63,684 nucleotides of DNA, taken from NCBI GenBank assembly GCA_026391315.1, contig JAPLDT010000011.1, forward strand, positions 1-63,684. The letters are read 5' to 3'. This DNA comes from Bacteroidia bacterium. Its GTDB lineage: Bacteria; Bacteroidota; Bacteroidia; Bacteroidales; Prolixibacteraceae. The position numbers were made by a program, and so were the translations under genes. Below, piece after piece: positions 1 to 56,248 of this stretch. Each line of letters begins with the position of its first letter. The stretch's first letter is position 1. Under the pieces are notes generated by a model. It saw nothing but the letters and a program-made list of their open reading frames with translations. It did no database searches and had not been told where the DNA came from.

Positions 1-185
1 AACAGGATAAGCACCAACCGATGTCACAAATCGTAGTAATAAAATTGCTACGAGGAAGTACGAGCATGAAAATTTACTCTCTTAACCTGTTTTATTAATT
101 ATTGATTTTTAAAGTATTAGAAATTTATATACACATGAAATGAGCATGATTGTAAATCACCAATCGGAGTGAATATAAACAACAT
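1..185. other. Intergenic leader region with inverted repeats
   Basis: No gene is visible. Bases 1-11 can pair with 81-91 (10 of 11 positions), and TCGTAG (31-36) pairs with CTACGA (48-53), so a branched fold of about 90 nt is possible. A partial copy of the 3' half of the neighbouring hairpin element, reading TATATACACATGAAA, lies near 127-141. Nothing allows an assignment to a known RNA family. Confidence 0.3.
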
Positions 186-231
186 GCGAATTCCATGTGG
201 CAATTAAAAAACAAATTATATACACATGAAA
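186..231 (+). repeat. Hairpin element copy A, contains the blaI start codon
   Basis: A 46-nt element whose arms CATGTG (194-199) and CACATG (223-228) enclose a 23-nt A-rich loop. The ATG in the right arm is the start codon of the BlaI-type gene. An inverted copy with 42 of 46 matches lies at 3585-3630, and more diverged copies at 40403-40439 and 47179-47223. Stem bases differ between copies but stay paired. Confidence 0.75.
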
Positions 232-3584: not shown

Positions 3585-3630
3585 TTTCATATGTTTATAA
3601 TTTGTTTTTTAATTGCCATATGGAACTCGC
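3585..3630 (-). repeat. Hairpin element copy B
   Basis: Inverted copy of the element at 186-231 (42 of 46 identical). Arms CATATG (3588-3593) and CATATG (3617-3622) enclose a 23-nt loop containing AATTTGTTTTTTAATTG on the + strand. It follows the ABC ATPase gene by 20 nt and no gene starts in it on either strand. Together with copy A it brackets the whole 0.2-3.6 kb module in inverted orientation. Confidence 0.7.
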
Positions 3631-3749
3631 CGATCCACCAGCTGGCGGATTCTCCTATGTGCCAAAAGATTTTCCATGGCTCGTTTGGTACTGTCTTAAT
3701 GTGATCAAGGAGAAGCTCAAGCCTTCTGTCGCAATGTTAATCCAAAATG

Positions 3750-23683: not shown

Positions 23684-23709
23684 GTGTTTAATAGGCGCAA
23701 AAATAAAAA

Positions 23710-23744
23710 CTGACGGGGTGACTCTGAGTGACCCCGTCAGTTTT
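23710..23744. terminator. Hairpin terminator shared by two convergent modules
   Basis: CTGACGGGGTGACTC pairs with the region ending ACCCCGTCAG (one mismatch, 1-nt loop), followed by TTTT on the + strand and preceded by an A-run that gives T's on the - strand. It lies between two convergent LytTR genes and fits a bidirectional terminator. A near-identical, perfectly paired copy is at 28960-28990. Confidence 0.85.
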
Positions 23745-23756
23745 AATAAGCTGCCA

Positions 23757-28943: not shown

Positions 28944-28959
28944 TGAATGTTTTAATCAA

Positions 28960-28994
28960 CTGACGGGGTGACTCTGAGTCACCCCGTCAGTTTT
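28960..28994. terminator. Second copy of the module-boundary hairpin
   Basis: A perfect 15-bp stem, CTGACGGGGTGACTC and its complement around a single T, followed by TTTT on the + strand. It differs from the hairpin at 23710-23740 by one base, the one that breaks pairing there. The two copies bracket module 2. Confidence 0.7.
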
Positions 28995-29045
28995 ACGAAT
29001 ATGGCCATATAACATCCTATTAATCTGTGATTTGCGAGTCTAATC

Positions 29046-39018: not shown

Positions 39019-40407
39019 TTAATTAAACGAAATAGGTTTAAGATTGTAAATTGTTATTGCATTTTCCCGAAGGATTTTTTTTGCCACATCCAATGCCTCC
39101 GATTCGGTCAGATAAGCCTCTTTGACCATCTGAATCAAGGTCGAAGCTACGGTTTCCCTTGCCAATACCGATGCTCCATAGGCTCCTTCTACCGTCTGGC
39201 TATCTCCGCCATAAGCCATGATTTTATTGTTGGGTACGGTTTCGATAAACTCCTGCAGGTACCGACTGGTATAAGCTGGCGAAATCAGCGCCGACCAGGC
39301 CATGTCAATGAATACATTCGGGAAATTTTTGGCAAGGGTGGCCATCTCGCCACCATAAGGATAACCGGCATGAAGCAGACAAAATTTCACTCCCGGAAAT
39401 TTGAAGAACGCCTTGGCCAGTCCGGTGGGATTGGCGTTTGTTATTTCGTTGCCGCTTCCGGTTTGAAGTCCTGTATGAATCTGGACCGGGACCTTGTACT
39501 TTTCGCAGAGGCCCAGAAGTTTGAAGAAGATGAAATCCTGCAAAGGTTTGGCCTCTTCAAAGGGGTAAATGTGATCGGGATTTGATTTCATCTTCTCAAA
39601 AACAGTGGTGGCGTTTTCTCGGGAAACCTCGTCGAATTTCAGGGTACGGTAGTAGGCAACTCCAAATTTTGCTCCCTGGATACCGAGCTTTATATCCTGT
39701 TCAAAAATGCTGTCGACCAGTGATTCGTATGCCTTCAGAGAAGTGATCTTCTTCCCGCTGGCACCAAATCGGCTGTTCATCTTGTTGTATCCGAAAAAAC
39801 TTACATACCTGTCGTACACAAAGAATCGCCTGAAGTTGCAATTCCCTTCGTTCACCACATCCCTTGGATTGGAGGTGTTGTACTCCATAATCAGGCAGGC
39901 ATCAATTTTGGATTTCTGTTTCAGGATGGTTTCATAATAGCCTTTTTTATGGGAATCCTTGATACGTTTAGAGAGCTCAACGTAGGTCTGATCGTTCAGA
40001 TCATCCATCCCAAAGAGATCTTTGGCTGCAATCAGCACGGATCGGCCGTATGCGGTGGTCCGCATGTTTGCCCAACCATCTTTGGCAGCCAACCATTTTT
40101 CTTCTATACTTTTATCCTTGCCTTTCAGTATATTGTATATTTTGTCTGAAGGAGATCCGGATGAAATAAGATCCGACTGCTGGTAATTGGTAAACAGCGT
40201 GCTAAAGTCTGCCGGACCGGCAAGAGCCTCAGTTTCACTCATCAGATGTTCGTGCGTATCAATCAGTCTGATAGCATTCACGGCGTTTTGAATTCTCTTT
40301 TCGAAACCGGGTTTAGGCAATGCGCTGATAGATGATTGCGCATTTAAACCCAGTGCAAGGAATAAAATCAGGACCGAGATAATAGTCGTTCGTGTTAATT
40401 GATTCAT
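39019..40407 (-). CDS. Secreted amidohydrolase-superfamily protein
   Basis: A 462-residue protein with a signal peptide (TTIISVLILFLALGLNAQ). Metal-site motifs of the amidohydrolase-2 type are complete: HxH in DTHEHL (His52, His54), VQIHTG, LLHAGYPYGGEM and a late Asp in MAYGGDSQ. The family includes decarboxylases, lactonases and uronate-isomerase-like enzymes, mostly cytoplasmic, so export is notable. Its place in a glycan run suggests a sugar lactone or deacylation step (inference). The start ATG lies in the 3' arm of hairpin element copy D, as in the blaI gene. Confidence 0.82.
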   Translation of the reverse strand: MNQLTRTTIISVLILFLALGLNAQSSISALPKPGFEKRIQNAVNAIRLIDTHEHLMSETEALAGPADFSTLFTNYQQSDLISSGSPSDKIYNILKGKDKSIEEKWLAAKDGWANMRTTAYGRSVLIAAKDLFGMDDLNDQTYVELSKRIKDSHKKGYYETILKQKSKIDACLIMEYNTSNPRDVVNEGNCNFRRFFVYDRYVSFFGYNKMNSRFGASGKKITSLKAYESLVDSIFEQDIKLGIQGAKFGVAYYRTLKFDEVSRENATTVFEKMKSNPDHIYPFEEAKPLQDFIFFKLLGLCEKYKVPVQIHTGLQTGSGNEITNANPTGLAKAFFKFPGVKFCLLHAGYPYGGEMATLAKNFPNVFIDMAWSALISPAYTSRYLQEFIETVPNNKIMAYGGDSQTVEGAYGASVLARETVASTLIQMVKEAYLTESEALDVAKKILRENAITIYNLKPISFN

Positions 40408-40439
40408 GCGTATATATTTTTTTTAAAGGTCGCATGGAA
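40403..40439 (-). repeat. Hairpin element copy D, contains the amidohydrolase start codon
   Basis: On the minus strand TTCCATGCG ... CGCATGAA with a 20-nt A-rich loop; inner arms CATGCG / CGCATG pair perfectly. Aligned to copy A it shares TTCCATG, TTAAAAAA, TATATAC and CATGAA, and the stem bases that differ from copy A do so on both sides. A second inverted repeat, ATGGAATACCCA (40434-40445) with TGGGTATTTCAT (40481-40492), lies directly upstream. Confidence 0.65.
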
Positions 40440-40527
40440 TACCCAAAGATTCATTTTCGGTTGGAATGAAAATTTTCTCATGGGTATTTCATCAGGATAA
40501 TTTAATAGTTGAAAATGGATGAAAAGT

Positions 40528-40636: not shown

Positions 40637-41788
40637 TCAGCTCTTCCGGACGAAAAATGAGACCCAAAGGATATAAAGCATGCAGCATCCGATAACGGCC
40701 AAACTGACCAGAGGTCCGAAGGCTGTGCTTACATAGCCCATTACCAGCGGGATAAAGGCGCCACCCGAAACAGCCATGATCAGCAATCCGGAAATTTCGT
40801 TGGAACGAGTTGGCATTTGGGCCAGCGCAAGTGAAAAGATAATGGGAAACATGTTTCCGATGCCAAGTCCGATGACAACGATCGAAACATAGGCGAACAT
40901 GTTTACCGGGGCCAAAAAGACTCCGAGAATACCTGCAAGCGCTACCAGTGTGGTAAGCAACAGAAAAACCTGTGGTTTTATCCAATTCAGGATGATTGCA
41001 CCCAGAAAGCGTGAGACTGTTTCTCCGAAAAAGAACATGCTGATTCCCAGTGCAGCTGCTTCCATGGTCAATCCATATTTGGCAATCAAAATGTTGGCAA
41101 TGTTGGTGTTGATGGCCACTTCCGTTCCTACAATCAGAAAGATGGAGAGCGCCATAAATGCCACAAACCTATTTTTAAGCAGTCCGAAGCAAGAGGCAAA
41201 GGAGGCCGGTTTGCGGTCAGGTTTCGACTCCACAATTGGGGTCATGGAGAGCCACAGGGCTGCAAGAAGGGAGGTGATGCCATAAACGGCGAATACCAAT
41301 CTCCAGTCGCCCATATATTTGGCCATGAAGGTGGCAATAATAGGACCGGAAAAAGAGATGATGGCCTTCACAAATTGGGAAGTACTCAAATAGCTGGCAA
41401 GTTTTTTTTCGGGTGAAACATCCTGCAGCAGTGGGTTTGCAGAAACCTGAATCACCGTATTACCGATTCCAAGGAGAATAAAAGAGGCCAACATCATTCC
41501 GAAAGAGTAGTGCACGAAGGGCAGTCCAAGTCCGAATGCCTGAATGACCATCCCGATGTTCAACATGTTGCGTTTGCCATATTTGTCCTGCAACACACCA
41601 ACCGGCACCGATAGCACGAAGAACCAAAGCAGCACCATCATTGGCAGAAACTGAGCCACGAAGTCGGTCAGTCCGAAGTCTTGTTTAACATACCCGGTCG
41701 CCACACCGATGATATCCACAAATCCCATCACCACGAAGGAGAGGAATACGGGAAGCAATTTTTGAAGTCCGATGTTTTTAGATGTCAT
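40637..41788 (-). CDS. FucP-like sugar transporter (major facilitator superfamily)
   Basis: A 383-residue inner-membrane protein with about 11-12 hydrophobic helices. FGLTDFVAQFLPMMVLLWFF, GVLQDKYGKRNML and GIGNTVIQVSANPLLQDVSPEKK are typical of the FucP/glucose-galactose/hexose proton symporter branch. It is a little shorter than usual FucP (about 430 residues), mainly at the N-terminus. It probably imports the monosaccharide released by the glycosidases of this run. A 9-bp tandem repeat starts 18 bp upstream of the start codon. Confidence 0.85.
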   Translation of the reverse strand: MTSKNIGLQKLLPVFLSFVVMGFVDIIGVATGYVKQDFGLTDFVAQFLPMMVLLWFFVLSVPVGVLQDKYGKRNMLNIGMVIQAFGLGLPFVHYSFGMMLASFILLGIGNTVIQVSANPLLQDVSPEKKLASYLSTSQFVKAIISFSGPIIATFMAKYMGDWRLVFAVYGITSLLAALWLSMTPIVESKPDRKPASFASCFGLLKNRFVAFMALSIFLIVGTEVAINTNIANILIAKYGLTMEAAALGISMFFFGETVSRFLGAIILNWIKPQVFLLLTTLVALAGILGVFLAPVNMFAYVSIVVIGLGIGNMFPIIFSLALAQMPTRSNEISGLLIMAVSGGAFIPLVMGYVSTAFGPLVSLAVIGCCMLYILWVSFFVRKS

Positions 41789-41806
41789 GGGGAATAGTTT
41801 ATTTAG

Positions 41807-41887
41807 TTTGAAATGTTTGAAATGTTTGAAATGTTTGAAATGTTTGAAATGTTTGAAATGTTTGAAATGTTTGAAATGTTTGAAATA
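41807..41887. repeat. 9-bp tandem repeat upstream of the transporter gene
   Basis: The unit TTTGAAATG is repeated eight times without change from 41807 to 41878, then once as TTTGAAATA. It lies in the 5' leader or promoter of the minus-strand transporter gene. Perfect short tandem repeats of this kind change copy number by slippage. Confidence 0.95.
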
Positions 41888-41911
41888 TTGACAGACACTG
41901 AGCCTGGACTC

Positions 41912-46535: not shown

Positions 46536-46637
46536 AATTTTGTTACACAGAGGAACACAGAGAAGCACAGAGTTACACAGAGAAATATTTAAAAGGTTTG
46601 AGTTTGAAATATTTAAAAAGTTTGAAGGGTTACCCCT

Positions 46638-46703: not shown

Positions 46704-46841
46704 TGGAAATTAAGTATCTGAATACCTCAGCTTTCCAAACTCTTTATACAAAAAAACTTTTCAAACTATTTTTTTCTCAGTGTAACTCTGTGCTTCTCCG
46801 TGAAACTCTGTGTAATTTTGTAAAAGTGCAAATCTCGAAAA

Positions 46842-47178: not shown

Positions 47179-47223
47179 TTTCATGCTATATTAATTTGTT
47201 TTTCAATGGTAGCATGGAACTCC
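47179..47223 (-). repeat. Hairpin element copy C in the era leader
   Basis: Arms CATGCTA (47182-47188) and TAGCATG (47210-47216) enclose a 21-nt loop with AATTTGTTTTT on the + strand. In the orientation of copies A and D it reads on the minus strand. On the + strand it would be the very 5' end of the era transcript. The longer 7-bp stem keeps full pairing although its bases differ from the other copies. Confidence 0.65.
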
Positions 47224-47298
47224 ATGTTGTCGAATATTTATTTCATTCGATTGGAAATTGTGAGGCAACATGTTCGTTTCAGACAATCAGCAGGAATA

Positions 47299-53935: not shown

Positions 53936-54273
53936 ATCCTTAAACAACCTTATACATGATTGCACAGCAAATATATAGGAAAAAGATTGGATTATTTAGT
54001 AAACTTAAATAAAATTTGGAAAGAATATATGCAATTTTTAATTTTGTCTCCCACTTGCAAATCCTCTCTTGATATTTGTAAATGAATTCAGAAATCAATA
54101 CTTTTTATACAAATGATCAGTACCATCATGCCAGGCTTAGGAGCTTCGATGACAGGAAACTAATAATTTGAAATGAGATTCTTGTCTGTAAGTTCATCGG
54201 TTAAATCCCGCCCTGCATGTAGCTACGAGACGATAATGTGTGCAATTTTATCTGGACAAAATCCCAAACAAAA
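53936..54273. other. Intergenic region holding the left cassette-like repeat
   Basis: This 338-bp AT-rich gap between the methyltransferase and GH13 genes has no gene. Its second half (from about 54120) holds the repeat at 54143-54223, followed by GATAATGTGTGC near 54232. The first half shows nothing recognisable besides the likely methyltransferase promoter. Confidence 0.5.
54143..54223 (+). repeat. Cassette-like repeat, left copy
   Basis: An 81-nt segment whose diverged second copy is at 56167-56248 in the same orientation. Most similar parts: GCTTC-A-TG-CAGG near the start, and TTAAATCCCGCCCTGCAT-TAGC at the end (22 of 23 identical). The two copies bracket the GH13 gene. Confidence 0.75.
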
Positions 54274-56166: not shown

Positions 56167-56248
56167 GCTTCATTGTCAGGGAATTAGTGAATTGAAAAGC
56201 AAGCACTTCGTAGGGAGTATATATGTTAAATCCCGCCCTGCATATAGC
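56167..56248 (+). repeat. Cassette-like repeat, right copy
   Basis: Second copy of the repeat at 54143-54223, 46 bp after the GH13 stop. It is followed by CCGTTAGCGGTCATTG (from 56254). TAGCGGT at 56258-56264 is complementary to ACCGCTA at 57315-57321, just beyond the GH114-like gene. Confidence 0.75.

Follow-up and report, generated by a model that had tools for sequence, protein, structure and literature searches.

We have found in the window, the 63,684-bp stretch analysed here (part of contig C18 of a 4.69-Mb draft genome of 111 contigs, labelled G000), four copies of what is very probably a non-autonomous, high-copy mobile element of ~85-100 bp. Sequence comparison gives it defined ends (AT and TTTC) and a preferred target (TTTC↓AT, the arrow marking the insertion point), and shows that it often splits and rebuilds start codons of host genes. 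We regard it as a new kind of miniature mobile element, and a widespread one; the evidence for its mobility, ends and target is strong.

The window hairpins are the left halves of longer units

The four hairpins described in an earlier note on this DNA were all found in place, with arms CATGTG/CACATG in copy A (194-199 and 223-228, its T-rich strand being the minus strand), CATATG/CATATG in B, CATGCTA/TAGCATG in C and CATGCG/CGCATG in D. We have built a covariance model of this hairpin from 123 distinct sequences and scanned the window at E ≤ 0.01. Copies A to D were matched (E = 1.4e-15, 3.6e-15, 2.6e-11 and 1.1e-9, respectively), as expected by construction because all four are among the building sequences, and nothing else in the window was. 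The hairpin proved to be only the left half of the unit, a second hairpin following it in each window copy (Table 1).

Table 1. Coordinates of the units, the long-form end and the first hairpins in the window
Feature	Position	Strand	Remark
Unit A, 91 bp (GAATTCG...CTCATTTC second hairpin)	137..227	-	Adjoins left end of long form
Long-form left end, cut by contig start	1..136	-	Directly follows unit A at TTTC↓AT
Unit B, 99 bp, right end degenerate (TTTG)	3589..3687	+	Not at start codon
Unit D, 85 bp, loop 3 nt short	40406..40490	+	At start codon
Unit C, 98 bp, intergenic before Era-type GTPase gene	47183..47280	+	Not at start codon
First hairpin A with flanking TTTC/GGAA (TTTCATNNG...CNNATGGAA)	191..231	-	Covariance model match
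First hairpin B with flanking TTTC/GGAA	3585..3625	+	Covariance model match
First hairpin D with flanking ATTC/GGAA	40402..40439	+	Covariance model match
First hairpin C with flanking TTTC/GGAA	47179..47219	+	Covariance model match

Two of the units contribute to a start codon. Unit A supplies the AT of the ATG (226-228) of a BlaI-type repressor gene (ORF 226-600; Pfam Penicillinase_R, E = 2.5e-30), and unit D that of the ATG (40407-40405, minus strand) of an amidohydrolase-type gene at 39019-40407 (Pfam Amidohydro_2, E = 2.9e-18). Unit B lies between the end of an ABC-transporter gene (3564) and the next gene, and the gene after unit C matched Pfam MMR_HSR1 and KH_2.

The window also contains other repeats. 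Inverted copies of a ACACAGAGTTACACAGAG-type repeat at 46542-46584 and 46767-46819 had many matches in the genome and the genus. A 9-bp tandem repeat, GTTTGAAAT, is present in ~10 copies at 41797-41889, in front of the gene at 40637-41788. A near-identical, strong and terminator-like hairpin, AACTGACGGGGTGACTCTGAGT(G/C)ACCCCGTCAGTTTTA, occurs twice, 5.2 kb apart (23708-23745 and 28958-28995), and a 33-nt repeat (85% alike; 54191-54223 and 56216-56248) precedes two neighbouring genes, possibly as a shared leader.

Anatomy, copy number and covariation

A search with the 20-nt loop motif, allowing up to three mismatches, returned 75 occurrences in the genome against four for the reversed pattern used as control. 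Of 150 candidates from this genome that were scored, 123 matched the covariance model, which is a lower bound. Reading 72 of its units on their T-rich strand gave the order AT-NNG-(T-rich loop)-CNN-ATGGAA-(second hairpin)-TTTC. Each unit begins with AT right after a flanking TTC and has TTTC as its right end; right ends were assigned by script in 70 of these 72 units and in 109 of 111 distinct units obtained by scanning a genome collection. The stem of the first hairpin runs into the flank, where TTTCATNNG pairs with CNNATGGAA, and the arms of the second hairpin fall into the families GAATACCC/GGGTATTTC, GAATAGCC/GGCTATTTC, GAACCCTC/GAGGGTTTC, GAACTCG/CTCGTTTC and GAATTCGCATG/CATGCTCATTTC. The window units span 85-99 bp, and those of the whole genome 64 to 108 bp.

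At eight loci (L064, L065, L066, L068, L001, L002, L031 and L054), small palindromes of another kind (CGAAGATC..GCGAAG, TCCGCCAGCTGGCGGA, CCCGAC..GTCGGG) are found in the loops or arms of the second hairpin, where further short repeats seem to have inserted or to have replaced the original sequence.

The stem changes, which the earlier note had read as compensatory from four copies, behaved as such in the larger set. The units of the source genome had been picked partly for paired arms (at least 5/6 pairs, or L067), so that their pairing is not independent, and 8 of 80 listed matches were dropped before counting. The pattern used for the collection scan fixed the outer stem pairs and left the two variable inner pairs free, so only these two provide a fair test of covariation. 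They were Watson-Crick in 101 and 104 of the 111 distinct collection units, compared with maxima of 56 and 77 paired out of 111 in 2000 shuffles. Over all 123 sequences, the own part of which was chosen partly for pairing, 96.5% of the cells pair and the covariation score was 0.225; shuffles gave 0.062 and slid partners no more than 0.064. The second hairpin, too, showed paired variants among the 111 collection units. Predicted single-strand folds lend less support, as they displayed both hairpins in only 45/70 own and 58/107 other units (103/177), with a median z of -2.0 and -1.5, respectively. The stem covariation is real, yet it is a property of a mobile element.

Empty sites and independent insertions

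We have compared the insertion sites with the corresponding loci of relatives. At the Era-type gene, for which neither G004 nor G006 had an orthologous locus listed, the five relatives' loci that were read all carried the exact empty site GATTTTC↓AGACAATC. The source genome reads GATTTTC↓98-bp unit ending in TTTC↓AGACAATCAG, and the relatives GATTTTC↓AGACAATCAG, two of them with one extra T. At the start codon of metF (Pfam MTHFR), G000, G001, G004 and G006 hold four different units, and the site is empty with an intact ATG in G002, G003, G005 and G007. A conserved GCAAATATAATTG block lies upstream of metF in 7/8 loci (by eye), which places the unit between promoter and gene; on the gene strand the block is TATATTTGC-like, which we take to be the Bacteroidetes -7 box.

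A zinc-dehydrogenase gene carries a unit in G000 and G004 and a degraded one in G001, and is empty in G005, G006 and G007; the contig of G003 stops 8 nt into a unit, and G002 was uninformative. The site of unit D lacked a unit in 3/3 orthologous loci read, which counts as absence rather than as an exact empty site because the flanks there do not align. Within the source genome, five pairs of 88-bp units are 100% identical at different loci, and 9 of 70 units come after another unit in tandem arrays. Taken from these sequence comparisons, the hairpins very probably belong to a mobile unit with ends AT/TTTC and target TTTC↓AT.

Insertion target and rebuilt start codons

The tetramer to the left of the 61 arrays of the source genome was TTTC in 44, ATTC in 12, CTTC in 3, GTTC in 1 and TGTC in 1, and the right-end tetramer was TTTC in 56/61. 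Since the right TTTC is nearly constant and the left flank varies, TTTC belongs to the element and there is no target duplication. In 38 of the 61 arrays the first unit opens an ORF of 60 aa or more, beginning at an ATG whose AT comes from the unit. An AT follows the right end in 34 of these 38 and in 10 of the 23 other arrays (Fisher p = 2.2e-4), four start-codon-like insertions being without the right-hand AT. This pattern is expected of insertion at TTTC↓NN, with the left AT coming from the element and the right AT from the old start codon. Of the 111 collection units, 79 likewise open an ORF of 60 aa or more, and the right end of 96 is followed by AT.

Sequence comparison thus indicates that the element inserts directly after TTTC (or NTTC), with a preference for TTTC↓AT. 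A start codon (ATGAA) is cut as AT↓G and then rebuilt with the element's own AT, and the inserted unit becomes a 5' leader between promoter and gene. As TTTCAT is the antisense of ATGAAA, start codons are favoured, tolerated sites. TTTC sites at starts and in non-coding DNA numbered 11:100 in the window, 21:547 in the own loci and 136:2013 in the other loci, and TTTCAT sites 11:8, 21:49 and 136:213, respectively. By these counts, which use a crude ORF rule for genes and loci chosen because they hold units, the observed start-codon insertions (38/61 own, 79/111 elsewhere) are moderately above the TTTCAT-based crude expectation. TTTC alone falls short of the start-codon bias and TTTCAT explains most of it; the bias needs the full TTTCAT together with loss of insertions in coding DNA.

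In the commonest subfamily (137-227 and alike), a short ORF on the gene strand ends at an ATGA overlapping the rebuilt start (by eye), so that translational coupling is possible.

An insertion usually costs the host a gene; here the gene stays intact because the element brings the missing letters of the start codon, and this would explain the more than 100 copies in one genome and the presence in several Bacteroidota classes. Many genes of these bacteria would then possess a hairpin-bearing leader that was acquired recently. This bears on the annotation of start codons and on how expression is read in a phylum where Shine-Dalgarno sequences are rarely used.

The earlier note had attributed the preserved pairing to selection on a folded RNA. 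A cis-regulatory leader RNA, spread as a regulon, would fit the start-codon-proximal position in 38/61 own arrays and 79/111 units elsewhere, the start codon lying within the stem, an RNA fold z of -4.7 for one unit and the short upstream ORF of the commonest subfamily. We nevertheless regard it as very improbable. The proteins downstream of 79 units had no common function, matching 108 Pfam families of which the commonest (SusD-like) occurred in 3/79, and the copies are mobile, as seen from the empty sites, the non-genic copies, the independent metF insertions, the identical copies and the arrays. As a general explanation, a leader RNA is contradicted by the empty sites, the independent insertions and the unrelated downstream genes; single copies may have been co-opted as leaders.

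A long form in the blaI array

A long form of the element, with the same ends, was seen at six contig ends of the source genome. An identical 136-bp sequence opens contigs C18 (window 1-136), C27 and C47 right after TTTC. Contigs C8, C99 and C95 end or begin with another shared stretch of 112-131 bp, which finishes in the right end of the element and is each time followed by a short unit. Beyond its last unit, and beginning with the very first base that follows TTC, C95 matched the region upstream of blaI in G003 (76% over 88 nt, E = 6e-13), and also that of G007 and G002; G001 gave no match. The same search with the other right-end contigs returned nothing for C8 and only E ≥ 0.044 for C99. 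The most likely order at this locus, read from the sequence, would be blaI, unit A, long form, unit, unit, old upstream region, and a left end of the long form would thereby be linked with a right end. blaI would then most likely be a second matching empty site, located at a start codon, with its junction spanning a gap in the assembly.

Neither the 13 contigs of up to 6 kb, read whole, nor the first 2.4-6 kb of 46 more, nor C4 in full contained the interior of the long form. A 48-aa reading frame adjoins the long-form right end. It had no match in Pfam, NCBIfam, PHROGs, PADLOC, plasmids or viral contigs, and against the PDB returned only glycosidase matches at E = 0.77.

Distribution

The search of Bacteroidota genomes with a covariance model, proposed in the earlier note, found matches in 21 of 41 genomes (the own genome and 40 relatives). 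Matches numbered 123 in G000, 87 in G004, 71 in G003, 59 in G001, 50 in G006, 32 in G007, 26 in G042 and 24 in G024, with at most 11 in each other matching relative and none in G002, of the same genus. In a phylum sample including the own genome, with 44 candidates scored per genome, 15/148 genomes matched. The collection scan returned at least 112 stretches; among the 80 matches listed, all but one have Bacteroidota titles (Algoriphagus, Labilibaculum, Cyclobacterium, Mongoliibacter, Geofilum, Prolixibacteraceae and others), and the remaining one is titled Candidatus Atribacteria. Units of distant classes keep the same ends (20 loci read), the stem of L324 being much shortened. One viral contig contained the motif, and blastn with two units against plasmids and with one unit against phages gave no match.

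The earlier note knew of no named family with this pattern, and we have found none either. Rfam gave no match in the window at the gathering score. One unit searched singly had no match at E ≤ 5, and a second one matched only eukaryotic families, below the threshold. In the openly available literature, no paper describing the element was found among titles and the opening lines of abstracts. The alternative that the note itself had raised, that the copies are pieces of a known transposon end, was borne out in that they are pieces of a mobile element, but not in that no known element could be named.

Transposition route and rival mobile elements

From this analysis, single-strand transposition of the HUH type (IS200/IS605-like) appears to be the likeliest route, to which we give slightly less than an even chance. 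The analogy is drawn because insertion occurs at a fixed motif without duplication, the hairpins are strand-fixed and GGAA could pair with TTTC (including one G-T pair) in nearly every aligned sequence. The element would transpose as a single strand of DNA recognised through its two hairpins, and the GGAA in its centre would pair, in the manner of an IS200/IS605 guide, with TTTC at both the target and the right end. The enzyme would act in trans, and the long form in the blaI array may be its source. We tentatively propose, as a possibility that falls well short of being probable, that the start codon serves as the address. One internal GGAA (in ATGGAA) would pair with TTTC(AT) at both places, and the element would land at AT↓G of ATGAA, rebuild the codon and become the leader of dozens of unrelated genes, singly or arrayed. 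If GGAA sets the target, a changed GGAA should redirect the element, which would make it a small system in which guide-directed single-strand transposition can be tested.

The short unit carries no gene, and the source genome has 11 Y1_Tnp (PF01797) matches. Together with the high copy number, the short hairpins and the largely non-coding location, these matches would suit a REP element moved by a RAYT (TnpA-REP) protein. Several observations make this improbable. The element was absent within ~1.5 kb of the Y1_Tnp matches of the own genome (0/11), and 35 Y1 loci of the genus gave a single weak, stemless motif match. No pair of Y1 proteins above 45% identity linked the element-rich G003 and G006, in a comparison where 30/34 loci yielded a protein and G003 is 85% complete. 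The Y1 genes have different palindromes of their own (by eye), and the GTAG foot is not in the consensus TTTCAT...ATGGAA of the 123 sequences. An autonomous copy was likewise sought through Y1 transposases, and the flanks and proteins of the PF01797 loci in the own genome and the genus gave no link.

Most of the 11 Y1_Tnp matches (L074-L084, on contigs C75, C34, C79, C40, C31, C4, C59, C39, C84, C35 and C87) are RAYT-like, and own palindromic repeats adjoin most of these genes (e.g. AGTCCCGTAGGGACG, GCCGCGTAGCGGC and GCTCCGGAGGAGC; by eye), so that many RAYT/REP systems coexist in this genome. Locus L249, considered as a unit with a transposase, was set aside; its RAYT fragment (2196-2693) is nested in the second hairpin between direct 9-bp repeats, CTCGCCAGG, and carries its own repeats. 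Loci L152, L163 and L231, which have no proper right end and were considered as cargo carriers, are decayed and hold no cargo gene.

Alternatively, a tyrosine or serine site-specific recombinase could integrate a small double-stranded circle at a shared TTTCAT core, the hairpins being a by-product. The circle junction and the preferred target would then both hold TTTCAT, tandem arrays would arise naturally and no duplication would be expected. Such a reaction does not require two covarying hairpins per unit and a fixed strand, however, and the core tolerates mismatch on its right side, with 13/23 non-start arrays lacking AT; we consider this explanation unlikely. A MITE derived from a DDE insertion sequence, which would also be short, non-coding and multi-copy, is very improbable. 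The ends (AT... and ...TTTC) form no terminal inverted repeat, there is no target duplication and the hairpins are internal rather than the ends of one palindrome.

Comparison with known systems

Like members of the IS200/IS605 family (IS608, ISDra2 and PATEs), the element inserts 3' of a short fixed motif without target duplication and has imperfect, strand-specific hairpins near both ends. In the family, guide sequences are complementary to the cleavage sites, according to excerpts of PMC8266576; in the element, GGAA, a candidate guide complementary to the presumed TTTC cleavage site, is located 5' of the right hairpin, as guides are. It differs in that no TnpA was seen, a single GGAA would serve both ends and the left hairpin lies between presumed cleavage site and candidate guide. 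Moreover, its stems vary and its T-rich loop is conserved, and its target is a start-codon motif.

For Bacteroidetes, passages of PMC6006769 describe TnpA-Y1 subclasses 1.2, 2.4 and 2.6, and REPtrons with high-copy short hairpins whose spread is presumed to be transposase-driven. The element resembles REP/RAYT systems in its high-copy short hairpins, and fits none of the three subclasses as described in those passages. REPs have a conserved GTAG foot, as stated in excerpts of PMC8266576. By comparison, the element has two hairpins with precise ends, no GTAG foot and no flanked RAYT, and the subclass 2.6-like genes of its own genome have palindromes other than those of the element.

Short mobile repeats that become part of transcripts and have known leader effects, such as the Correia elements, are found in other bacteria. 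We know of no Correia-type miniature repeat that cuts and rebuilds a start codon, and these repeats differ from the element in ends, target and phylum. HEARO/IsrB elements reportedly insert next to ATGA-like sites and comprise a long structured RNA, often with a nuclease gene. The window units have 85-99 bp and no gene, and share with HEARO/IsrB both mobility and a start-codon-like target.
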